A stretch of 64,000 nt of DNA from Tistrella mobilis (lineage in GTDB: Bacteria > Pseudomonadota > Alphaproteobacteria > Tistrellales > Tistrellaceae): NCBI RefSeq assembly GCF_039634785.1, contig NZ_JBBIAB010000018.1, positions 1 through 64,000 on the forward strand, written 5' to 3'. Position numbers and translations under genes: made by a program. The notes beneath the pieces are model-generated. The model did not search any database, was not told the DNA's origin, and saw nothing but the letters and a program-made list of their open reading frames with translations. This document shows, one piece after another, positions 1,883-18,868 of the stretch (its first letter is position 1; each line of letters opens with the position of its first letter).

Positions 1883-3328
1883 ATGGATGCGAACACGCCC
1901 CTGGACACGCGCATGCTGATCGGCGCCGATTTCGTCGCGGGCACCGACACGCCCGAGACGATCCTGAACCCCAAGACCGAAGAAACCCTGCTCGACCTGC
2001 CCGAGGCCTCCCCCGATCAGGTGGATGCGGCGGTCGCGGCGGCCGGCCGGGCCTTCGGCAGCTGGTCGCGCACCACGCCGGCCGAACGTGCCGCCCTGCT
2101 GCTGAAGCTCGCCCAGCGCATCGAGGACGAGGCCGAAGGCTTCGCGGCGCTGGAGGCGCTGAATTGCGGCAAGCCGCGCCATGCGGTGCTCGCCGACGAG
2201 ATGCCGGCGATCGTCGACTGCTTCCGCTTCTTCGCCGGCGCCGCGCGCTGCATGCACGGCGCGGTGGCGGGCGAATATCTTGCCGGCCATACCTCGATGA
2301 TCCGCCGCGATCCGGTGGGTGTGGTCGCGTCGATCGCGCCCTGGAACTATCCGCTGATGATGGCGGCCTGGAAGCTCGCCCCGGCGCTCGCCGGCGGCAA
2401 CACCGTGGTGATCAAGCCCTCGGAACAGACCCCGCTCACCATGCTGAAACTGGCGGGTCTGATCGCCGAAATCTTCCCCGAAGGGGTGGTCAATGTGGTG
2501 GTCGGGCGCGGTGAAAGCGTCGGCCAGCGGCTGATCGATCATCCGGGCGTGTCGATGGTCTCGCTCACCGGCGACATCGCCACCGGCAAGAAGGTGCTGA
2601 CCGCGGCGGCGCGCTCGGTGAAGCGCACCCATCTGGAACTGGGCGGCAAGGCGCCGGTGATCGTGTTCGACGACGCCGATCTGGAGGCGGTGGTCGAAGG
2701 CGTGAAGATCTTCGGCTACTACAATGCCGGCCAGGATTGCACCGCCGCCTGCCGGATCTATGCCGGGCCGAAGATCTACGACCGGCTGGTCGCCGATCTG
2801 TCCTCGGCCGTGCAGGGGCTTCGGTTCGCACAGGCCGACGACAGCCAGAACGATATCGGCCCCTTGATCTCCGCCCGTCAGCGCGCCCGCGTCGCCTCTT
2901 TCGTGGAGCGGGCGAGCGAGCTGGATCATGTGGAGATCACCACCGGCGGCCGCCAGGCGCCGGGCCGCGGCTTCTTCTACGAACCGACGGTGGTCGCCGG
3001 CGCCCGCCAGTCCGACGAGATCGTCCGCCGCGAGGTTTTCGGGCCGGTGGTCTCGGTCACCCGGTTCTCGGATGTCGACGAGGCGGTGGCCTGGGCCAAT
3101 GACAGCGATTACGGCCTCGCCTCTTCGGTCTGGTCCAGCGACGTGAAGAAGGCGCTGGCGACGGCCTCGCGCCTGCAATACGGCTGCACCTGGGTCAACT
3201 GCCACTTCATGCTGACCAACGAAATGCCCCATGGCGGCATCAAGCAGTCCGGCTATGGCAAGGATATGAGCATGTACGCGCTGGAGGACTACACCGTCGT
3301 CCGCCATGTGATGGTCAAGACGGTCTGA
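1883..3328 (+). CDS. patD: Aldehyde dehydrogenase, gamma-aminobutyraldehyde type (PatD/YdcW-like)
   Basis: NAD(P)-dependent cytoplasmic dehydrogenase of 481 residues. It probably oxidises 4-aminobutanal, the product of putrescine transamination, to 4-aminobutyrate. The general base Glu252 (in LELGGK) and nucleophile Cys286 (in GQDCTA) are both present and 34 residues apart, as expected. The cofactor-binding PWNYP and KPSEQTP stretches and the C-terminal [16 protein letters not shown] block closely match aminobutyraldehyde dehydrogenases. The ATG at 1883 has GGAGA at 1871-1875. The open frame extends much further upstream, but that part is the permease read in another frame. Its place behind two polyamine permeases supports the assignment. 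Betaine aldehyde or another amino-aldehyde remains possible. Confidence 0.85.
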
Positions 3329-3365
3329 CCGCAGGCCTCGTCCCGGACAGGCTCCCCGGACTGAC

Positions 3366-3391
3366 CCCGGACATGCCGGTGTCGGTCCGGG
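3366..3391. terminator. Possible stem-loop between convergent genes
   Basis: CCCGGAC at 3366-3372 pairs perfectly with GTCCGGG at 3385-3391 around a 12-base loop. It lies between the converging aldehyde dehydrogenase and glycosyltransferase genes. There is no T-run, so intrinsic termination is uncertain. Confidence 0.3.
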
Positions 3392-3410
3392 ATCCCGGCG
3401 AGGATCGCGC

Positions 3411-4568
3411 TCAGCCCTGGGCCAGGGCCCGGGCATAGACGCCGAGCGTGCGCTCGACCATCGCCTCGACCGAATATTCCCGGGCAAGCCCGCCCGCCGC
3501 CTCGGCCATGCGGCGGCGGGCGGGTTCGTCGGCGAGCAGCCCGGCCACCGCCGCCGCCATCGCCTGAACATCGCCCGCGGGGGTCACGATGCCGGCCTGG
3601 CCCGTGCCATGGACCTCGCGGGCGCCGCCTGCATCCATCACCACCGCCGGCAGCCGGCGGTGCAGGGCCTCGATCAGGGTATAGGGCAGGCCCTGCCAGC
3701 GGCTGGGCATGACCAGCAGGTCGAAGGCGGCCATGGCCCGGGCACCGTTCTGCACCCCCAGCCAGGCCATCCGGTCGATGCCGCGCCGCTTCGCTTCGGC
3801 GCGGATCCGGCCGGCATCGCGGCCGTCGCCGACCACCGCCCAGACGGGATCCAGCCCCATCTGCCGCACCGCCTCGGCCAGTGCCGGCAGCCGGTCGGCG
3901 CCCTTTTCGGCGACCAGCCGGCCGACGAAGCCCACCACCAGCGCGTCCTGGGGCAGGCCCAGTTCGGTGCGGGCCTGGGCGCGGGTCACCGGTTCGGGCG
4001 GTGCGATGCCGTTCGCCACCCGCTCCAGCCGGCGGCGATCGATTTTCAGATATTCCCGGGCATGGACGCGCTCGTCCTCGGAGACGGCGATGATCCGGGT
4101 CGCGCGCGCGGCCAGCAGCCGTTCCCGCAGCCCGGCGGTGATCCGCCCGATCATGCCCCGGTCGGGGTCGAGCGTCGCCAGGCCGTGTGGGGTGTAGACC
4201 CTTGCCCGGATCCGCTGCCGCCGGGCCGCCAGCAGGCCCAGCAGCCCGGCCTTGGACCCGTGAAGATGCAGCACGTCCAGCGGCCCCGAGGCCGCGATGA
4301 TCGCACCGAGCGCCGCCAGATCCCGGCGGTCGCCCGGATGCAGATCGGGGCGCATCGACAGCTCCACCGTCTCCACCCGCCCGCCCAGCTGGCGCAGCCC
4401 TGCCAGGAAGGGGCCGTCGGCACGTTCGGCCGACCAGACCAGGGTGACCTGATGGCCGCGCGCCGCCATGCCCTCGGCCAGGTCGATGACATTGCGCCCG
4501 GCGCCCCCCAGGGTGGCCTCAATCACCTGCAGAACGCGCAAGGGGCGGTCGAAACGGACACCGGTCAT
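3411..4568 (-). CDS. Glycosyltransferase family 4 protein
   Basis: Cytoplasmic GT-B-fold glycosyltransferase of 385 residues. The N-terminal half begins with the usual acceptor-side motif (EATLGGAGRNVIDLAEGM, a GGA loop). The C-terminal half carries the nucleotide-sugar domain, with VGFVGRLVAEKGADRLPALAEA near residues 210-230 and MPSRWQGLPYTLIEAL near 300. In most GT4 enzymes the last motif reads E-G-x-x-x-x-x-x-E. Here the first Glu is Gln (WQG) and the second Glu is kept. The donor and acceptor cannot be told from sequence; lipopolysaccharide or capsule assembly is typical. It is a lone gene divergent from glmU, which supplies UDP-GlcNAc for such pathways. Confidence 0.85.
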   Translation of the reverse strand: MTGVRFDRPLRVLQVIEATLGGAGRNVIDLAEGMAARGHQVTLVWSAERADGPFLAGLRQLGGRVETVELSMRPDLHPGDRRDLAALGAIIAASGPLDVLHLHGSKAGLLGLLAARRQRIRARVYTPHGLATLDPDRGMIGRITAGLRERLLAARATRIIAVSEDERVHAREYLKIDRRRLERVANGIAPPEPVTRAQARTELGLPQDALVVGFVGRLVAEKGADRLPALAEAVRQMGLDPVWAVVGDGRDAGRIRAEAKRRGIDRMAWLGVQNGARAMAAFDLLVMPSRWQGLPYTLIEALHRRLPAVVMDAGGAREVHGTGQAGIVTPAGDVQAMAAAVAGLLADEPARRRMAEAAGGLAREYSVEAMVERTLGVYARALAQG

Positions 4569-6154: not shown

Positions 6155-7504
6155 TCAGGCCTGGCCGGCCTTCCAGGCCTTCACGGTGGCGAACACCGTG
6201 CCCGACAGCGCCAGCAGGGCGATGAGGTTGGGCACCGCCATCAGCGCGTTCAGGATGTCGGCGATGGTCCAGACCAGGCCCAGATCGGCCACGGCGCCCG
6301 CGAACAGGGCAGCCACCCAGGCCAGCCGGTAGGGCAGGATGACCTTGGGGCCGAACAGGAACTGGGCGCAGCGCTCGCCGTAATAGCTCCAGCCCAGAAT
6401 GGTGGTGAAGGCGAACAGCACCAGGCCGATGGTGACGATCCAGCCGCCGAAACCGGGCAGCCCCGCCTCGAAGGCCGCGGAACTGAGCGGGGCGCCGCTG
6501 GTACCCTCGGTCCACAGGCCCGACATCACGATCACCAGCGCCGTCATGGTGCAGACGATGATGGTATCGATGAAGGTGCCGAGCATCGCGATCAGGCCCT
6601 GGCGGACCGGATCATTGGTCCGGGCGGCGGCATGGGCGATGGGGGCGCTGCCCAGGCCCGCCTCGTTCGAAAAGATGCCGCGGGCGACGCCGAAGCGGAT
6701 CGCGGCCATCACCGTCGCCCCGGCAAAGCCGCCGGCCGCCGCGGTGCCGTTGAAGGCGCCGTCGATGATCGTGGCGAAGGCCGCCGGCACCCGGTCGATG
6801 CCCAGCAGGATGACCAGCGCCGCGCCGCCGATATAGAACACGGCCATCGCCGGCACCAGTTTCTCGGCCACGGCACCGATCCGGCGCACGCCGCCGATCA
6901 CCACCACGAAGACCAGCACCACCATGACCAGACCGCTGACCCAGAGCGGCACGCCGAAGCTGTGTTCCATGGCGGTGGAGATGGAATTGGCCTGCACCGT
7001 ATTGCCGATGCCGAACCCGGCCAGCATGCCGAACAGGGCGAAGAGCAGGCCCAGCCAGGCCCATTTCGCGCCCAGCCCGTTGCGGATGTAGTACATCGGC
7101 CCGCCGACATGGGCGCCGGACAGGTCGGTTTCGCGATATTTCACCGCCAGCACGGCTTCGGAAAACTTGGTCGCCATGCCGAAAAGCGCGGTGATCCACA
7201 TCCAGAACACCGCCCCCGGGCCGCCGAGCGCGATGGCGGTGGCGACGCCGGCGATATTGCCGGTGCCGATGGTGGCCGACAGCGCCGTGGCCAGCGCCTG
7301 GAAGGGGCTGATCTCGCCCGCCACGGCCGTATCGCCCGGCTTGCGGCGCCCGAAGGCCAGCGCGAAGCCGGTGCCGATGCGCCGGAGCGGCAGGAAACCA
7401 AGCCCCAGCATCAGATAGACGCCGGTGCCCAGCAGCAGCACAAGCGTCACCGGCCCCCAGACGACGCCCGAGACGGCGCCCAGCAGTTCGTTCAACTCGG
7501 TCAT
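6155..7504 (-). CDS. Sodium:alanine/glycine symporter, AGCS family
   Basis: Inner-membrane secondary transporter of 449 residues importing alanine or glycine with sodium. It has about ten membrane segments. The AGCS signature near the N-terminus is clear (ATIGTGNIAGVATAIALGG), as are the conserved FSNEAGLGSAPIAHAAA stretch and the ILGWSYYGERC block near the C-terminal third. The ATG at 7504 was chosen because GAGGTGA lies three bases upstream on the minus strand; longer starts to 7675 would add a non-homologous leader. It converges on glmU. Substrate specificity within the family cannot be fixed from sequence. Confidence 0.9.
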   Translation of the reverse strand: MTELNELLGAVSGVVWGPVTLVLLLGTGVYLMLGLGFLPLRRIGTGFALAFGRRKPGDTAVAGEISPFQALATALSATIGTGNIAGVATAIALGGPGAVFWMWITALFGMATKFSEAVLAVKYRETDLSGAHVGGPMYYIRNGLGAKWAWLGLLFALFGMLAGFGIGNTVQANSISTAMEHSFGVPLWVSGLVMVVLVFVVVIGGVRRIGAVAEKLVPAMAVFYIGGAALVILLGIDRVPAAFATIIDGAFNGTAAAGGFAGATVMAAIRFGVARGIFSNEAGLGSAPIAHAAARTNDPVRQGLIAMLGTFIDTIIVCTMTALVIVMSGLWTEGTSGAPLSSAAFEAGLPGFGGWIVTIGLVLFAFTTILGWSYYGERCAQFLFGPKVILPYRLAWVAALFAGAVADLGLVWTIADILNALMAVPNLIALLALSGTVFATVKAWKAGQA

Positions 7505-7754: not shown

Positions 7755-8681
7755 ATGACCGAGACCTTCCTCGCCCTTCTGCCCGTCTTTGCCGTCATCC
7801 TGCTCGGCGCCGGGCTCAAGCGGGCGAAGATCCCGGGCGATGCCTTCTGGCCGATGATCGACCGGCTGACCTATCTGGTGCTGTTTCCGGCCCTGCTGAT
7901 CACCAGCACCGCCCGCGGCGCCTTTCCCGCCGCCAGCGCCGTGCCGATGGCCGCGGCGCTCACCGGCGGCATCCTGATCATGGCGGGCGCGCTGGTGCTG
8001 ATCCGCCGGCTGCTGCCGGTGGACGGGCCGGGCTTCAGCTCGGTCTTCCAGGGGGCGCTGCGCTACAACACCTATGTCGCCTTCGCCGCCACCACCGCCA
8101 TCGCCGGCAAGCAGGGCATGGCGCTCGCCGGTCTTGCGGTGGCGGCGATGGTGCCGCTGCTGAACCTGATTTCGGTGATCTGCGTGGCGGCCTGTGCCGT
8201 CCCGCCGGGCGAGGATGCGCCGCAGCACCCGCCTTTGCTGCGGCTGATCGTCACCAACCCGCTGATCATCGCCTGCGCGATCGGCATTCCGCTCGGCGTC
8301 TCGGGGCTGGGCCTGCCGCCGGTGGTCGACGGCGTGCTCGACATCCTGGCCCGCGGTTCTCTGCCGCTGGCGCTTTTGTCGGTGGGCGCCGGGCTGTCGC
8401 TGCGCCTGGACGGCCGGGCCGCCTTCGCCATCGGGTTCTCGACCGCGATCAAGCTGCTCGGCATGCCGCTGATCGCCCTGCTGATCCTCTGGCCCTTCGG
8501 CGCCGACGACACCACCCGGGTGGTTGCGGTACTCTTTGCCGCATGTCCGACGGCGACGTCGGCCTATATTCTCGCCCGCCAGCTTGGGGGCGATGCGCCG
8601 CTCGCCGCGGCGGTCATCACCGTCAGCACCTTCGCGGCGCTGATCACCATGCCGCTGATGCTGGCCCTGGTCGTGCCGTGA
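7755..8681 (+). CDS. AEC family transporter (auxin efflux carrier / malonate permease type)
   Basis: Membrane protein of 308 residues with about ten hydrophobic segments in two repeats of five, as in the AEC (MdcF/PIN-like) family. The N-terminal repeat begins FLALLPVFAVILLGAGLKR. The second repeat carries AACPTATSAYILARQLGG, a conserved family block in the region thought to form the crossover. Family members move malonate, malate or other organic acids; the substrate here is not deducible. The gene is followed, without a terminator, by a short possible coding frame and an ABC transporter. Confidence 0.85.
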   Translation: MTETFLALLPVFAVILLGAGLKRAKIPGDAFWPMIDRLTYLVLFPALLITSTARGAFPAASAVPMAAALTGGILIMAGALVLIRRLLPVDGPGFSSVFQGALRYNTYVAFAATTAIAGKQGMALAGLAVAAMVPLLNLISVICVAACAVPPGEDAPQHPPLLRLIVTNPLIIACAIGIPLGVSGLGLPPVVDGVLDILARGSLPLALLSVGAGLSLRLDGRAAFAIGFSTAIKLLGMPLIALLILWPFGADDTTRVVAVLFAACPTATSAYILARQLGGDAPLAAAVITVSTFAALITMPLMLALVVP

Positions 8682-8793
8682 CGCCCCGCACAGCTTTCGG
8701 CTTGACCTCGTGCTTCCAAGGCGTTACCGCCAAGCCCAAAGGCGCCGCCGCGTGCCGGAACGAGACGATCATCCGCCGCAGGGACAGGAAACC

Positions 8794-8797
<4 letters not shown>
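8678..8797 (+). CDS. Possible 39-residue small protein or leader peptide between transporter genes
   Basis: A 39-codon frame begins at a GTG whose GTGA overlaps the stop codon of the AEC gene (TGA at 8679-8681). It ends in a TGA that overlaps the likely GTG start of the ABC ATPase gene (GTGA at 8794-8797). The peptide includes TSCFQGVTAKP and a basic tail (RRRDRKP), and third-position GC is high. No good Shine-Dalgarno precedes the GTG. Coding status is unproven. It could instead be an untranslated spacer or a coupling leader. Confidence 0.25.
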
Positions 8798-9752
<955 letters not shown>

Positions 9753-9753
<1 letters not shown>

Positions 9754-10565
9754 TGGCCGGAACCGAAACCACCCGCCCGCAGCAGGCCGGTCTCGCCCAG
9801 GCGGGGGCGGCGCCCGCCGCACCCGGTTTCGGCCGGCTGTTCGGCGCGCATCTGGGGGCCAATCTCAAGGAACTCGGCCGGTCCAGCTCGTTCGCCATGT
9901 CGACCGTGGCCATGCCCTCGCTGCTCTACCTGTTCTTCGGCGCCACCAACGCCTCCAACCCGGCCGAGGCCGGGCGCCTGGCCGCCGCCTGGGGGCTGTT
10001 CGGCGTGCTGGGGGTCGCCTTCTTCCAGTTCGGCGTCGGCGTCGCCCAGTCGCGGGAACGGCCCTGGTTCACCTATCTGCGCACCCTGCCGGCCGGCGGC
10101 GGCCCGCGCATCGCCGCCCAGGTGGCGACCGCGCTTGCCTTCTCGCTCGCGGCCGTGGCCCCGGTCATCCTGCTCGCGGTGCTGATCAACGGTGCCACGC
10201 TCACCTTTCTCGCCTGCCTGAAACTGCTGCTGGTGCTGGTGCTGGGCGGCGTGCCCTTCGCCCTGCTCGGCCTCGCCATCGGTTTCAGCGTCACGGCCCG
10301 GGCCAGCGTGCCGATCGCCCATCTGGTCTATTTCCCGCTGGCCTTCCTGGGCGGGCTGTGGCTGCCGCCCGACATGCTGCCCGCGATCGTCAACCAGATC
10401 TCGCTGCTCACCCCCACCCGGCACTATGCCGAACTGGCCTGGAGCGCCATTGCCGACGGGCCGCTGCCGCTGGTGCACTGGGCCTGGCTGCTGGGCTGGG
10501 GCATCGTCTTCGCCTGGGTGACGCTGATGGCCTATCGCCGCGACCGCGGCCGGCGCTTCGCCTGA
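9753..10565 (+). CDS. ABC-2 type transporter permease
   Basis: Membrane partner of the preceding ATPase, 270 residues with about six hydrophobic segments in the ABC-2 arrangement. A conserved stretch near the end, LPPDMLPAIVNQISLLTPTRHYAELAW, matches the membrane-proximal loop of ABC-2 exporters. The ATG at 9753 overlaps the ATPase stop by one base; a GTG at 9750 is also possible. It closes the operon, and pyrB follows after about 160 bases. Likely an exporter of a small hydrophobic compound, lipid or drug. Confidence 0.87.
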
Positions 10566-13179: not shown

Positions 13180-13815
13180 ATGGCCGCAGAGACCGCCCCC
13201 TGGCTGCTCGTCATCGCCGCCCTGGGCGGCTATCTGCTGGGCGCCATCCCCTTCGGTCTGGTGCTGACCCGCATGGCCGGGCTCGGCGATGTCCGCAAGA
13301 TCGGCTCGGGCAATATCGGTGCCACCAATGTGCTGCGCACCGGCAACAAGCCCCTGGCGCTGGCGACGCTGATCCTGGACAGCGGCAAGGGGGCGGCCGC
13401 CACCCTGATCGCGCTGGCCCTGCTCGGCCCCGATGCGGCGCTGGCCGCCGCCGGCGGCTCGGTTCTGGGCCATCTCTTCCCGGTCTGGCTGGGCTTCAGG
13501 GGCGGCAAGGGCGTCGCCACCGGGCTCGGCGTGCTGCTGGCCGCCGACTGGCGGATCGGTCTTGCCGCCTGCGCCATCTGGCTGGCGACGGCTTTCCTCA
13601 CCCGCTTCTCGTCGCTGGCGGCGTTGGTCGCCTTCGCCGCCGCCCCGGTGCTGTCGTGGTTCCTGGCCACGCCGGAGCTGGCCGGCGTCACGCTGTTCAT
13701 CGCCGTGCTGGTCTTCATCCGCCACAAGACCAACATCGCCCGGCTGCTGGCCGGAACCGAACCGAAGATCGGGAAGAAGAAGGACGGGGCCGGGACGGAT
13801 CAGGCGGAGGGCTGA
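13180..13815 (+). CDS. plsY: Acyl-phosphate:glycerol-3-phosphate acyltransferase PlsY
   Basis: Inner-membrane enzyme that moves an acyl chain from acyl-phosphate to glycerol-3-phosphate, the first step of phospholipid synthesis. The 211-residue protein has five or so membrane segments and the three conserved motifs: [14 protein letters not shown], the [21 protein letters not shown] glycine-rich loop, and IFIRHKTNI-type ([13 protein letters not shown]) near the end. The C-terminus is lysine-rich. AGGAG precedes the ATG at 13180. In most relatives dprA follows directly. Here the gene's last 16 bases overlap, tail to tail, the end of an NRPS gene on the other strand. Confidence 0.93.
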
Positions 13816-16523
13816 TCCGGCCAGGCGTCCCCGATCGCGGCCACGATGCGCGCAAGATTGGCCTCGTCGGTCGCGAGCGCTACATGATCGCCTGCAACCT
13901 CCACCAGCCGGACATCCGGCGACACCCTGTCCCAGCCCAGAAGATGGCCATGCCCGGCATACGACGACCGGGTATGCGATGTCACGATCAGCAGCAGACG
14001 GCAGTGAAGCCGTCCCGGCTGCCATCCCACGATCATGGCCCGGCGGATGGCCGAAATCAGCGCCCGTTCCACCCGGATCCGGTTCCGGCGTCCCGGTGCC
14101 GCCCGCCGGGCCATGGCCGCGACCAGCCTGAGCGGCCGATGGTCAGGCCTCTGCGCCAGGGTGAAGAACAGCTTCGACATCGGCTGGCCGATCCCGCGAA
14201 CCAGCCGACGTCGGAAACCCGGCGACGGTTCGGGGATCCTGCCCGCCTGCAGCAGGGATGCCGCATCGTCATGACTGGCGACGATGTCGCCGACCACCAC
14301 CATCCCGGCTGTCAGCCCCCGTGACGCCAGGATCTGCGCCGCGGCGACCGCCAGCCGCCCGCCGAAGGACAGACCGACCAGGCCGAAATCGGGTGTGGCG
14401 CCGCCGGGTCCGGCAGCACCGGTCAGATGGGCGGCGATCCTGTCGGCCACCTCCGCCGCCAGATCCTCGATGCTCCGCCGCCTGGACAATTCCGCATCCA
14501 GGTCCGGCAGGGCCACCAGACGCACCGTCGCCATCCCGGCGCAGCGCGCGGCCAGGACGATCAGATGCCGGGCCATGCCCATCACCCCCGGCACGAAGAA
14601 CAGCATCCGGGCGGTCGCGGCACCCAAGGGGTCGCGCAACGCCCGGCGCAGATCGGCCGGGGTCATCGCGCCGTTCAGCAGGGTGACCGGCAGCGGCCGA
14701 CCGGCCAGCGTTTCGACCCGTGCGGCGAAGCGCATCAGCTCCAGGCTGTCGCCGCCCAGTTCAGAGAAGGTGACGCCGGCCTGTGGGGCAGAGGCGCCGA
14801 ACATCTCGGCCCAGGCCCTGTCGACGGCATCGGCGAGCGCGGGTTCACCCGTCCCGCCGGCCGGTTCCGGCACGGGCGGCGCAGAAGGTGCCGCCCCCAA
14901 CCCGGCCAGGCCGTCGGCAAGGCTGCGGCCATCCAGCTTGAAATTGGCCAGCCGCGGCAGTTCCGCCATCACCAGCAGACGCCGCGGCACCAGATGCGGC
15001 GGCAGCTCCGCAGCCAGCCGGCCGCGCAGGGCCACAGGGTCGATCAGCCGCCCCGGCGCCGGCACCACCACCCCCGCCAGGGCCGTCTCGCCCTGCGGTG
15101 TCCGGTCCGGCAGAACCGCGGCATCCCCCACCCCCGGCAGGGCGCGCAGGGCCGCCTCCACCTCGGCCGGCTCCACCCGATGGCCGCGGATCTTGAGCTG
15201 ACCATCCGCCCGGCCCAGGAATTCCAGCTGCCCGTCGGCGCGGATCCGGCCCAGATCGCCCGGCCGCAGCCGCCGTGCCCCCGGCGCCACATCGCCGCCG
15301 GTCAGAAAGGTGGCGGCGGTCAGCTCCGGATCCCGCCAATAGCCTGCGGCCATATAGCGGCTTTCGACCTCGATCTCCCCGATTTCGCCATCCGGAACCG
15401 GCCGGCCCGCGGCATCCACCAGCCGCATGCGCCGATCTGCAACCGGCCAGCCGACCGGCACCACCCCGGCGGTGGGGCAGGTCTCGCGATCGATCAGCCA
15501 GTGCCGGTAGATGGTGGCATTCTCGGTGGAGCCGATGCCGACATAGATCCGGGCATCGGCCGGCGCATCGGCAAAGACGCGCGCCAGATCGGCGGCAAGG
15601 ATGCGCTCCCCCGCCAGATAGGCGACACGGATGCCGCCCAGCGCCGCCGGGCCGGCCCCGCCATCGGCCAGGACACGCAGCACCGTCGGCATGGCGTGAA
15701 AGATGGTCGGGCGGGTGGCCGCGAAGCGCCGGCCGGCGGCGGCGACGCCTTCGGTTCTCAGATCCACCGGAATGACGGCGGCCCCGGCCAGCAGCGCGCC
15801 ATACATGTCGCGAATGGCACCGTTGACCGCCGGCGAATACAGCCAGGTCAGGCGATCGGCGGCAGAGATGTCCAGAACGTCCCGATACTGAAAAACGTCG
15901 TGCAGCAGCCCCCTCTGGGTCTGCCAGACCCCCTTGGGGCGGCCGGTGGAGCCGGAGGTGTACAGAACATAGGCGGCATCATCCGGCCCGCCCCGGGGCG
16001 ACCAGCCGGCCGGCGGCGGCGCCAGATCGTCGATGGCGAGCACCGTGGCCCCTGCGGCCGTGGCCGCCGCCATCAGCTCCGGCCGCCCGGCTGCGGTCGC
16101 CCGATCGGTCAGCACCAGCCGCACCCCGGCATGGCCCAGGATCAGCTCGTTGCGGGCTGCGGGAAAGGAGGGATCGATCGGCACATAGGGCCGCCCGGCC
16201 GCAAGCGCCCCCAGCAGGGCCGCCAGGCAGCCGGCCGAGGCGGGGATCGCCACCGCCACAGGCTCCGGCTCCTCTCTGGCCGGCCCCTCTCCGGCCACCC
16301 CCTCTCTGGCCGCCGCCCTCCGGCCGTCGACCGCCCAGGCGATCCGCAGCGCCTGTCCCAGCAGGTCGCCATAAGTCGTCGCAGCCCCGGGCCCCAGAAC
16401 CGCAGGGGTGCTGGGGGCGCGGGTCGCCTGATCGGCAAAGACCGCGAAGACCGGCCGTTCCAGACGGTCGGGCGCGATCGGCACCAGCAGCGCCTCGGGC
16501 GTCGCGGCAGGCCCCCCGGTCAT
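13800..16523 (-). CDS. Single-module nonribosomal peptide synthetase: adenylation, carrier and thioesterase domains
   Basis: Protein of 907 residues. The adenylation domain (about 20-535) has A3 [14 protein letters not shown] at 185-198, an A5-like GSTENATIY at 331-339, A7 [10 protein letters not shown]8 with Lys444 ([11 protein letters not shown]) and the catalytic A10-type Lys529 (NFKLDG). The carrier domain holds the phosphopantetheine Ser593 in LGGDSLELM. The C-terminal alpha/beta-hydrolase thioesterase has the GLSFGG nucleophile elbow (Ser719) and a late His880 (GDHVAL). There is no condensation domain, so it should load and release, or self-couple, one acid. By hand alignment with PheA, the residue that normally binds the alpha-amino group (Asp235) is Asn234, hinting at a substrate without a normal alpha-amino group. 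Its start overlaps the URO-D stop by four bases (ATGA). Product unknown. Confidence 0.88.
16271..16315 (-). repeat. Three in-frame 15-bp repeats inside the NRPS gene
   Basis: Three imperfect 15-base units (CCTCTCTGGCCGGCC-like on the plus strand) run at 16271-16285, 16286-16300 and 16301-16315. They encode a five-residue repeat of Ala/Gly/Arg/Glu type around residues 70-84, in a loop of the adenylation domain. The period is a multiple of three, so the frame is kept. Confidence 0.75.
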
Positions 16524-17518
16524 GTCGCCACCCGGCGCAGCTGCCGCATCATCCGCGCCGCAGCCCGCAGATCCACCGACAGCGGCAGCACGCAGGCACT
16601 GGCCAGGACCAGGCCCCCGGCCCCCGGCCCGGCGCGCAGCCGGTCCACCACCGCAGCCAGATCGCGGCCGCCCCGGCCGATCAGCCGGTGGTCAAGCCCC
16701 ACGGCCGGCAGGGCCCCGGCCAGCGCCTGTGCCGGCAGCGCTTCCAGCACGGCCTGATCCAGATGCACCGCCCAGCGCGCCACCCCGGCGGGCAGGGGCC
16801 ACCAGGCTGCGGCATCGGCCTCGTGAAGATGCAGCATGTTGAACCCCAGCCCGTCCGCCGCGGCCATCACGCGGCGGTCGGTGTCGTCGATCGCGGCCGC
16901 CAGCCGGTCTCCGGCGGCACCTGCGGGCAGGGGCCAGCGGCCGTGGCCGCGATGCTTCGCGGCAAGATAGACCCCGTCGGCCCCCGCGGCCGCAATCGCC
17001 GCCACCAGCCGCACGGCCCGCCCGGCAACCGCGTCCAGCGCCGCCATCACGGCCTCGGGCGCCTCGGCCAGATGCCGGGCCAGCACATCCGCCGGTGCCA
17101 GCTGGGCCAGAACCGTCGCCGGGGCGAACAGCGTGGTCAGCAGCGGCACCGGCCGGGTGCGGGTCGCCGCCATATCGGCGGTCGCCTTCAGAACCGCCTG
17201 CTCGCGCGGATGCCAGGGGGCTGCCGCCGCGGCCTGCCCGACCCCCGCCCAGTCCGCGACGGCCGCGACCGGGCGGTGCAGAATGGTGCGCAGGCCCACC
17301 GGATCCGGCCGCCAGCAATCCGTCAGGCCGAAAGCCGCCGCCTGCCAGGTGCCGGCCGGGGTCAGCTTGATCAGGTCGCCCTCAAGCCGGCGGTCCAGAT
17401 CACGCGTGGCGGTGACCAGGGCCGGGGCGGAGACGTCACGCCGCGGATGATGTCGCCACAGCGCGACCTTCGTCCGGCGCCCATCCGCCCGCCATCCTGT
17501 CCCGGCTCTGCCAGACAC
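16520..17518 (-). CDS. Uroporphyrinogen decarboxylase (URO-D) superfamily protein, not HemE
   Basis: About 332 residues with the URO-D/methyltransferase barrel hallmarks seen in non-HemE members. These are an N-terminal VALWRHHP, then LIKLTPAGTWQAAAFG, a mid-protein GADGVYLAAKHRGHGR, and NMLHLHEADA, an HxH-containing segment at the position used for metal or substrate in MtaA-like proteins. It lacks the RAGRYLPEYR substrate loop of true HemE. The superfamily contains decarboxylases, cobalamin methyltransferases and MetE-like zinc enzymes, so the reaction cannot be named. GTG at 17518 is preferred because AGAGGTGAG lies just upstream; ATG at 17533 would add five residues. Its stop overlaps the NRPS start (ATGA), so both proteins are made together and probably act on one product. 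Confidence 0.75.
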   Translation of the reverse strand: MSGRAGTGWRADGRRTKVALWRHHPRRDVSAPALVTATRDLDRRLEGDLIKLTPAGTWQAAAFGLTDCWRPDPVGLRTILHRPVAAVADWAGVGQAAAAAPWHPREQAVLKATADMAATRTRPVPLLTTLFAPATVLAQLAPADVLARHLAEAPEAVMAALDAVAGRAVRLVAAIAAAGADGVYLAAKHRGHGRWPLPAGAAGDRLAAAIDDTDRRVMAAADGLGFNMLHLHEADAAAWWPLPAGVARWAVHLDQAVLEALPAQALAGALPAVGLDHRLIGRGGRDLAAVVDRLRAGPGAGGLVLASACVLPLSVDLRAAARMMRQLRRVAT

Positions 17519-17698
17519 GGTCTCACCTCTCATTATCTGCTTGTCTGCGGATCTGCCTGGTATGAAGACCGCCGCACCCTACCCCGAGCCGCGCCCCCGC
17601 GGCCAGACCGGAGCGGCAGGTTCCGGCGCCGCCCGGTGTTGAATCTACAACTGAAAAGCGACATACGCGCATAATTCCTGGATCATTGACGCGCAACG

Positions 17699-17714
17699 GG
17701 ATGCACATGCATCC
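17699..17714. promoter_or_regulatory. Perfect dyad just before dprA
   Basis: GGATGCA at 17699-17705 and TGCATCC at 17708-17714 form a perfect seven-base inverted repeat with a two-base centre, nine bases before the dprA start. It lies in the 200-base space shared with the divergent URO-D gene, so it could be a protein-binding site, or a hairpin limiting dprA translation. A CATAAT that could serve as a -10 box is at 17670-17675. Confidence 0.45.
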
Positions 17715-17722
17715 TGTGGCCC

Positions 17723-18868
17723 ATGTCCAGAACCCGCGTCGGCGGGCTGACGCGGGCGGAGCGCCTCGACTGGTTGAGGTTGATCCGGACCGAGCAGGTC
17801 GGCCCCATCACCTTTTTCGACCTGCTCGACCGCTACGGCAATGCCGCGGCGGCGCTGGAGGCCATTCCGGAGCTGGCGAAACGCGGCGGCAGGTCCCGGC
17901 CACTGACCCCGCCCTCGCGCAGCGCGGCAGAGGCGGAACTGCGCCGGATCACCGCGGCCGGCGCCCGGCTGGTGGCATTGGGCGAGCCCGGCTATCCGCC
18001 GCCGCTCGCCCGCATCCCCGACCCGCCGCCCCTGCTTCAGATCCGCGGTCATGATGCCGTCGCCACCGCACCGGCGGTGGCCCTGGTCGGCGCCCGGTCC
18101 GCCGCCCTGCCCGCCATGCGCCTCGCCGGCCGCATCGCCGCGGATCTGGCCGCGGCGGGTGTGGTGGTGGTCTCAGGCCTTGCCCGCGGCATCGATGCCG
18201 CCGCCCATGACGGTGCCCTGCGCGCCGGCCCGGGCGGTGCCGGGACGATGGCGGTGGTGGCGGGCGGGATCGATGTGGTCTACCCGCCGGAACACGCCGC
18301 CCTCCAGGCGCGCATCGCGGCCGAAGGGCTGCTGGTCGCCGAACAGCCGCCGGGCACCGAACCCCAGGCCCGTCATTTTCCCCGCCGCAACCGGATCGTC
18401 GCCGGTGCCACACTCGCCACCGTGGTGGTCGAAGCGGCGCCGCGCTCGGGCTCTCTGATCACGGCCCGGCTTGCGGGCGATTATGGCCGCGAAGTGCTGG
18501 CGGTGCCGGGCTCCCCCGCCGATCCGCGTTCGGAAGGCGCCAACCGGCTGATCCGCGACGGCGCAACCCTGGTCCGCGATGCCGCCGACGTGCTGGAGGC
18601 GATCCGCCCGCTGATCGACCGGCCGCTTGCCGAACCGGTCATGGAGACGGCCGTCGCCCCGCCGCCCATGGCCCCGGATCCGGCGGAACTCGACCGTGCC
18701 CGACGCGAAATTCCCCGCCGGATCGGCGCGTTTGCCGCACGTCTCGACGATCTCGTCCATGAGTCCGGCTTGACGGCGGCGACCATTCTCACGATTTTGT
18801 TGGAACTGGAACTTGCCGGGCGGCTCGATCGCCTGCCCGGACAGAAAGTGTCGCTGAGCATGGGCTGA
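17723..18868 (+). CDS. dprA: DNA-processing protein DprA
   Basis: Loads RecA onto incoming single-stranded DNA during natural transformation. The 381-residue protein starts with a helical DNA-binding-like region (residues 1-70). The Rossmann-like core follows with VALVGARSAA, VVVSGLARGIDAAAHDGAL, HFPRRNRIVAGA and the late GSLITARLAGDYGREVLAVPGSP. A winged-helix C-terminal domain ends the protein (about 320-378), as in many alphaproteobacterial members. The ATG at 17723 lacks a good Shine-Dalgarno and sits next to a dyad. It normally follows plsY directly; here the reverse-strand NRPS/URO-D pair lies between. topA follows after 99 bases. Confidence 0.93.
   Translation: MSRTRVGGLTRAERLDWLRLIRTEQVGPITFFDLLDRYGNAAAALEAIPELAKRGGRSRPLTPPSRSAAEAELRRITAAGARLVALGEPGYPPPLARIPDPPPLLQIRGHDAVATAPAVALVGARSAALPAMRLAGRIAADLAAAGVVVVSGLARGIDAAAHDGALRAGPGGAGTMAVVAGGIDVVYPPEHAALQARIAAEGLLVAEQPPGTEPQARHFPRRNRIVAGATLATVVVEAAPRSGSLITARLAGDYGREVLAVPGSPADPRSEGANRLIRDGATLVRDAADVLEAIRPLIDRPLAEPVMETAVAPPPMAPDPAELDRARREIPRRIGAFAARLDDLVHESGLTAATILTILLELELAGRLDRLPGQKVSLSMG

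Follow-up and report, generated by a model that had tools for sequence, protein, structure and literature searches.

A gene pair for a UroD-superfamily protein and a one-module A-T-TE synthetase between plsY and dprA of Tistrella mobilis, and its recurrence in two phyla

The gene pair and its place in the chromosome

The window analyzed here is a stretch of 64,000 nucleotides from Tistrella mobilis (NZ_JBBIAB010000018.1, positions 1 to 64,000). Between plsY and dprA it carries two genes on the minus strand, one for a protein of the UroD superfamily and one for an enzyme related to nonribosomal peptide synthetases (NRPS-like) with a single adenylation-thiolation-thioesterase (A-T-TE) module (Table 1). 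The genes and their domains, the recurrence of the two genes as a unit, the conserved adenylation code and the common clade of the UroD partners are direct observations. From these we arrive, with a probability of roughly 40%, at the reading that the pair is a laterally moving two-gene pathway, in which an anionic acid other than an amino acid would be activated, modified by a metal-type UroD enzyme and released. A first-pass annotation of the window had already placed the two open reading frames (ORFs) between plsY and dprA and had pointed to the ATGA overlap between them and to the 16-base tail-to-tail overlap with plsY, all of which are indeed found in the sequence. It had also proposed a synthetase devoid of a condensation (C) domain, and this holds as well: in the 907-residue protein Pfam lists AMP-binding (29-396), AMP-binding_C (454-529), PP-binding (567-628) and Thioesterase (640-760) and no condensation domain, which is the architecture of an NRPS-like A-T-TE enzyme. 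The motifs VGIGSTE (A5), GGDSLEL (carrier domain) and GLSFGG (thioesterase elbow) are present, and the core motifs of the adenylation (A) domain look usual by eye, without any change that would be predicted to inactivate it.

Table 1. Features of the window at the plsY-dprA junction
Feature	Position	Strand	Evidence
UroD-superfamily gene, 337 aa	16520-17533	minus	ORF; PF01208, 28.1 bits (cut-off 23.9)
A-T-TE one-module NRPS-like synthetase gene, 907 aa	13800-16523	minus	ORF; Pfam
ATGA overlap, 4 bases, UroD gene stop / A-T-TE gene start	16520-16523	minus	sequence
Tail-to-tail overlap, 16 bases, A-T-TE gene / plsY	13800-13815	.	sequence
plsY, left flank of the insertion	13180-13815	plus	PF02660 (G3P_acyltransf)
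dprA, right flank of the insertion	17723-18868	plus	PF02481 (DNA_processg_A), PF21102, PF17782
Gap between dprA and the divergently oriented UroD-like gene	17534-17722	.	

The junction was compared across relatives. A dprA match was obtained in 39 of 45 genomes, the own genome and a further Tistrella genome (G001) included, and 30 dprA loci were fetched, 28 of them from outside Tistrella. In 21 of these 28 alphaproteobacterial loci plsY immediately precedes dprA in the same orientation and the two matches are separated by no more than 166 bp, in line with the earlier statement that this junction is usually uninterrupted and co-directional; genes of the pyrB/OTCase, DHOase/amidohydrolase (pyrC), topoisomerase (topA) and RNB (rnr) types, also named in that statement, were found around plsY and dprA of the window by a family scan. 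The fetched flank contains no plsY match in the remaining seven loci, two of which (L066 and L071) are at contig ends; in the other exceptions to the gene order (L064, L065, L068, L069 and L089) the sequence retrieved upstream of dprA, about 1.5 kb, does not match plsY. The cassette occupies the same site in three distinct Tistrella genomes, namely the window genome, T. mobilis KA081020-065 (L001; the handle G524 was counted as the same chromosome) and G001, and a T. mobilis chromosome encodes a protein 95% identical to the UroD-like protein of the window. No genome outside Tistrella was seen to carry the pair at this site, and the refuting case named beforehand, core genes of known role at this position in all relatives, is not borne out.

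The G+C content of the cassette is 0.72-0.77 per kilobase and thus slightly above that of most neighboring kilobases (0.66-0.73), so there is no sign of a recent acquisition of foreign DNA of low G+C content. No match to a sigma-70-like promoter was detected within positions 13700-17800. Near the start of the synthetase gene, at 16265-16312, there is an in-frame 15-bp tandem repeat, the copy number of which varies among Tistrella genomes (3.2 in the window, 3.7 in L001 and, by eye, fewer in G001). The own genome holds one further URO-D match, a separate gene scoring 384 bits that we take as hemE. Elsewhere in this genome a search reported 26,475 codons of 'open frame' (L093, C3:80003-81316); the fetched stretch opens with about 1000 Ns, and the frame is probably an artefact of this run.

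Occurrence of the pair outside Tistrella

Both genes recur on plasmid NC_018749.1 of Emticicia oligotrophica (Bacteroidota) and in the genomes G382 and G829, which represent two species from a different genus of Alphaproteobacteria, with identities of 23-39% to their Tistrella counterparts. The Emticicia pair was reached from a weak tblastn match; its UroD-like gene (2667-3581) and A-T-TE gene (116-2635) are 31 bp apart and the encoded proteins are 23% and 30% identical, respectively, to those of the window. The search across genomes that had been suggested for the pair therefore yielded carriers beyond Tistrella, and the possibility that the two genes never co-occur elsewhere does not apply.

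The surveys drew on Pseudomonadota and on sampled classes and orders, and a carrier among Bacteroidota is known from the Emticicia plasmid alone. A search of 397 Pseudomonadota genomes returned only the own genome and G382, in which the synthetase gene adjoins. When the synthetase profile was run against 244 genomes of the order to which G382 belongs, G382 and the congeneric G829 were found. In G829 both genes are present with a GTGA overlap, and in G382 a GTG stands at the equivalent site, the longest ORF opening at another GTG 63 bases earlier. The UroD profile matched seven of 387 alphaproteobacterial genomes (three Tistrella handles, G477, G497, G577 and G708), and in a second draw of 398 genomes from the phylum, partly overlapping the first, the matches were the own genome, G382 and G233, the last of these belonging to an unrelated UroD branch. 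Two small classes contributed no match in 42 genomes and one in 30 (G109), respectively. The pair is thus rare among the sampled genomes, yet spread over two phyla.

Several candidates were set aside. The match in G109 is an ordinary NRPS module with Asp235 and the A5 proline, and a match in G022 (E 6e-4) was dropped. Hits in Microvirga and Aerococcus lie outside this comparison. The UroD-like proteins of G708, G577, G497 and G233 belong to other branches, and no A domain like that of the pair was found by tblastn (E 1e-3) in the 12-16 kb examined around each. The same holds for Gemmobacter, Polaromonas and Thermomicrobium plasmid proteins, which are UroD-like proteins of other branches with no pair-type A domain nearby (tblastn). 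A-T-TE-like proteins from G008 have the code SGSHREG, which is not that of the pair, and were dropped, as was an A-T-TE-like match in G005.

Within the genus of G382 the synthetase was detected at E <= 1e-100 in only two of 18 species, and the 15 kb around the pair in G382 and the 19 kb around it in G829 have nothing but the pair in common (ORFs of at least 120 aa, tblastn, E <= 1e-8). This indicates that the two genes move alone and as a unit, and we consider it very probable that they belong together functionally in most carriers. The earlier proposal of a self-contained two-enzyme pathway is hence strengthened as far as the unit is concerned, which recurs at unrelated sites and with one code, and the UroD-like protein may act on the compound handled by the synthetase.

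Adenylation code of the synthetases

The specificity code was read by MAFFT and from a HMMER alignment to linear gramicidin synthetase, in comparison with 21 other A domains; the G005 domain and the A-T-TE frame of L033 did not pass the motif filter and lie outside this comparison. The ten positions read NGRHYAGTIK in the window genome and KA081020-065, SGRHYAGTIK in G001 and Emticicia, and NGRHYAGTLK in G382 and G829. All six pair synthetases thus conform to the consensus (N/S)GRHYAGT(I/L)K, which is lacking from every one of 14 A domains in a sample taken elsewhere in the own genome (14 regions fetched, nine of which passed the motif and length filter and provided these domains). A code conserved in this way predicts the same substrate for all six enzymes. 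Arg239 is likewise absent from the 14 sampled domains, while His278 by itself is not unusual among sampled A domains. Aminoadipate-activating domains also have an arginine at position 239; no paper giving their code string was found.

Asp235 holds the alpha-amino group of amino acid substrates. It is replaced by asparagine or serine in all six pair synthetases, as is the proline of motif A5 by serine, while Lys517 is kept; the combination of Asp235 and Lys517 that characterizes alpha-amino-acid-activating NRPS modules is therefore absent. In the own-genome sample the two replaced positions go together, the A5 proline being present in all nine domains with Asp235 and in none of the five without it. 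A review describes changes at both positions in the keto-acid domain StsA, and in DhbE Asn235 contacts a hydroxyl group (PMC11253843). Caution is advised by McyG, which activates phenylalanine with a valine at position 235 (PMC11253843, as excerpted). The loss of Asp235 and of the A5 proline, which a keto-acid domain shows as well, makes an ordinary alpha-amino acid an improbable substrate, and with Arg239 and His278 in the lining of the pocket the acid may well carry a further anionic group.

In a tree of A domains the six pair domains group together with modest support (87/69), with the A-T-TE protein of Mesorhizobium japonicum plasmid pMLb (L032) as sister (96/96). This protein, the first module encoded on a plasmid of Nostoc sp. 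UHCC 0926 (L031) and two G008 proteins are the nearest relatives in the sampled tree. Like the pair synthetases, L031 and L032 have Arg239 and have lost Asp235; the remainder of their codes is different. The A-T-TE gene of L032 (7668-10601) lies beside genes for an FkbM methyltransferase, two hypothetical proteins and an aldo/keto reductase, and no UroD-like gene is among the 16 annotated features around it; the Nostoc stretch (L031) comes without annotation. On a plasmid of Mesorhizobium sp. AR07 (L033) an A-T-TE-like frame at about 7821-10500, for which the plasmid table lists no gene, is followed by genes for NAD synthase, asparagine synthase, an AMP-binding protein and an acyl carrier protein. 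The G008 proteins derive from two short contigs (L010 and L026), each with an A-T-TE gene of the related A-domain branch.

The UroD-like protein and its clade

Scores against URO-D (PF01208) are 28.1 bits for the window protein, weak but above the cut-off, 36.8 for Emticicia, 45.1 for G382 and 40.4 for G477. Six members from four lineages (two from Tistrella, G382 and G829, Emticicia, and G477) were aligned and have 30 invariant columns, among them W26, H28, H29, P30, D33, D53, K56, H235, H237 and C314. The partners of the synthetases and the fused protein of G477 form one clade (99/98), set apart from seven other UroD-like proteins and from hemE; the branching order within the clade is not settled by the tree. 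All six members have HHP at positions 28-30, compared with none of the seven other UroD-like proteins. HemE is defined by the N-terminal motif RQAGRY. Where the HemE of the own genome has this motif, the pair clade has W-x-HHP, and the UroD-like protein, which shares PF01208 with HemE, does not qualify as one.

His235, His/Cys237 and Cys314 occur in all 13 UroD-like rows of the alignment, and all six pair-clade members have the form H-x-H...C, while the own-genome hemE has Tyr, His and Val in these columns. As H-x-H...C is kept in the clade and absent from the own hemE, the thiol/methyl-transfer side of the superfamily is favored. On the evidence of the alignment, H235, H237 and C314 would resemble the zinc ligands of methyl- or thiol-transferring relatives rather than hemE. 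The first-pass annotation had offered decarboxylation or methylation; the residues lean toward transfer, and either reaction is a candidate.

The zinc ligands of MtaA are H-x-C...C, from which the H-x-H...C of the pair clade differs, so that the ligand set of MtaA and MtbA is not reproduced. The superfamily includes corrinoid methyltransferases and epoxide:coenzyme M (CoM) transferase (PMC10418091, in part), and the UroD-like protein matches three NCBIfam models, all from the group of soluble, MtaA-like CoM methyltransferases, at scores far below the respective cut-offs (28.9 bits vs 244, 18.0 vs 235.4 and 16.5 vs 400). The core methionine synthases MesA-MesD and MetE, compared here by published description, have zinc ligands of the type His-x-Cys/His...Cys at comparable places: in MetE they are His641, Cys643, Glu665 and Cys726, and in most MesC proteins histidine replaces Cys643, as in the UroD-like protein (PMC7857596, excerpts). 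Unlike MesA-MesD and MetE, the UroD-like protein adjoins a synthetase, and there is no evidence that it uses homocysteine. CdmB, another member of the superfamily, is described in excerpts as working without zinc (PMC13222342), which makes the metal of the pair's UroD-like protein a prediction. An enzyme of the MtaA/MtbA type would be expected to have genes for a corrinoid protein and a reductive activase close by; in scans of seven window neighbors and three G382 neighbors, and among the 11 features annotated near the Emticicia pair, no family of the corrinoid type came up. A sequence search of the PDB with the UroD-like protein returned only a chitinase (E 0.044), judged to be a chance match.

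In G477 (L048, 6790-8517) a protein of 575 aa begins with a UroD-like domain of the pair clade (first 315 aa), followed by a tail of about 260 aa. The tail contains a degenerate carrier-like stretch without a clear serine motif, which scores 17.0 bits with a hidden Markov model of 19 carrier domains; this score was reached by none of 1264 scored shuffles (2000 made), the best of which gave 12.5 bits. No A domain was found in 42 kb around the fused gene. A thioesterase homology of the tail was considered and is unproven (hhalign P 0.09; global-alignment z -0.1 to 3.6 with six references).

Release domains

The C-terminal domains of the synthetases are much less uniform than the code. Pfam Thioesterase is found in the window protein, with a serine in its GLSFGG elbow, and not in the proteins from Emticicia, G382 and G829, the elbow of which reads GNC by eye and suggests a candidate cysteine nucleophile. 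Such a nucleophile occurs in the beta-lactone-forming thioesterase of ObiF and in the beta-lactam-forming one of SulM (PMC11298585, excerpts). Profile comparison gave no significant similarity among the three groups of release domains, and the carrier domains of G382 and Emticicia are below the Pfam cut-off.

Observations that weigh against a two-enzyme pathway

Several results speak against the pathway outlined at the outset, and the strongest of them, as far as an obligate two-enzyme pathway is concerned, is provided by G001. Its UroD gene (L029, about 6543-7112) is short by 438 bp owing to deletions of 126, 228 and 84 bp, all in frame and at short similar stretches, which leave the reading frame and the ATGA junction intact; its A-T-TE gene is open and the product 91-92% identical to the Tistrella counterparts. 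A synthetase can therefore persist without a full UroD enzyme, and in G001 either a short protein is retained or translational coupling alone. The fusion in G477 may be the opposite case. The ratio of nonsynonymous to synonymous substitutions (dN/dS) relative to KA081020-065 is 0.335 for the synthetase gene and 0.383 for the UroD-like gene, several times the values of plsY, dprA, pyrC and topA (0.029-0.062); relative to G001 the contrast is smaller (0.295 for the synthetase gene, 0.034-0.188 for the same four neighbors). Both genes are thus under constraint, though it is weak. The release domains can hardly be aligned and the carrier domains fall below the cut-off in two lineages, so the lineages may release different products even though they activate the same acid. 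As to the code, position 235 differs (Asn/Ser) even inside Tistrella, and L031 and L032 have Arg239 with no UroD gene noted beside them. On the side of the UroD-like protein, the Emticicia branch is long and its composition departs from the tree model; an AlphaFold model for two sequences (window and L001), with a mean predicted local distance difference test (pLDDT) of 34.9, gives the metal site no support; and H257, which a three-sequence alignment had suggested as a further metal ligand, is not conserved and was dropped.

Proposed pathway and alternatives

For substrate class, metal, reaction, order of steps and release chemistry, we infer the following. The A domain would activate a single carboxylic acid, other than the ordinary alpha-amino acids and with a further negative group, the best guess being an alpha-keto or alpha-hydroxy dicarboxylic acid, and would load it onto the carrier domain of the synthetase itself. 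The UroD-superfamily protein, with its predicted metal site of the thiol/methyl-transfer type, may alter the same acid either before loading or on the carrier, and the C-terminal alpha/beta-hydrolase domain would release the product. More specifically, a corrinoid-free UroD metalloenzyme could act on the carrier-bound acyl group, by thiol- or metal-assisted alkyl or methyl transfer or by C-C cleavage on an anionic thioester; the natural fusion of UroD-like and carrier-like parts in G477 goes with this version, which we regard as doubtful. The papers searched describe no NRPS-like enzyme with such chemistry.

The family name and the fold class would be compatible with a true decarboxylase that strips a carboxyl group from an acid before the synthetase activates and releases it, and the code, by suggesting a second anionic group, even provides for a possible decarboxylation substrate. 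This is nevertheless unlikely, as W-x-HHP replaces RQAGRY of HemE, H-x-H...C, which HemE lacks, is conserved, and the own hemE exists as a separate gene. A synthetase of the arylpyruvate type, with the TE domain joining two keto acids into a furanone- or quinone-type product and the UroD-like protein making or tailoring the monomer, would account for the domain order without a C domain, which is that of RalA, EchA, TdiA and MicA (PMC5523082, excerpts), and for the keto-acid-like changes at position 235 and in A5, from which activity on aryl pyruvates might be read. Arg239 and His278, however, would suit a side chain with a negative charge better than a plain aromatic one, the 11 features annotated near the Emticicia pair include no aminotransferase and the release domains differ strongly among lineages, which makes this alternative distinctly unlikely.

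Other explanations dispense with a joint pathway or direct its product elsewhere. The two genes might be co-transferred neighbors without a common substrate, the UroD frame serving mainly for translational coupling of the synthetase. G001, which retains the frame and the overlap despite losing much of the barrel, fits this well, and three in-frame deletions would be expected in about 1 in 27 cases if the frame were not selected. Against it stands the association with UroD in all six synthetases of this code (one of them with a remnant), in two phyla and at unrelated sites, along with the full length of five of the six UroD genes and the fusion of a relative from the same clade to a carrier-like stretch in G477; we hold mere co-transfer to be improbable. 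Little credence can be given to a synthetase that, instead of releasing a free product, transfers its acyl group to a lipid, polymer or protein of the cell, with the UroD-like protein preparing the acyl donor: a single module with a variable release domain would suit this role, and the gene downstream of the pair in G382 gives weak esterase and AlgX-like matches, all below cut-off, but this neighbor has no match in the G829 stretch and no acceptor gene common to the carriers was seen. That the cassette is a decaying remnant without present function could be read from the weak constraint and the G001 deletions. It is very improbable given that both genes are open in the window genome, KA081020-065, G382, G829 and Emticicia and that dN/dS in Tistrella is well below 1.

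Relation to known systems and significance

No paper on a pair of UroD and A-T-TE proteins was found in the literature searched, outside which most subscription journals lie and for which one of the searches listed 25 of 938 matches. RalA, EchA, TdiA, MicA and the aspulvinone synthetases resemble the pair's synthetase in consisting of a single A-T-TE module without a condensation domain and in having an A domain that is not of the alpha-amino-acid type, as far as the excerpted account goes (PMC5523082). The enzyme described here would differ from them in its pocket with Arg239 and His278, probably unlike a plain aromatic one, and it differs in its UroD-superfamily partner and in a release domain that diverges among carriers.

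UroD-superfamily proteins of aerobes are often without an assigned role, and one-module A-T-TE synthetases without a C domain yield unusual small molecules. Two genes alone, with one conserved adenylation code in two phyla, come close to the lower size limit of a pathway suited to expression and chemical readout, and solving it would give a UroD clade a function and an orphan adenylation code a substrate.

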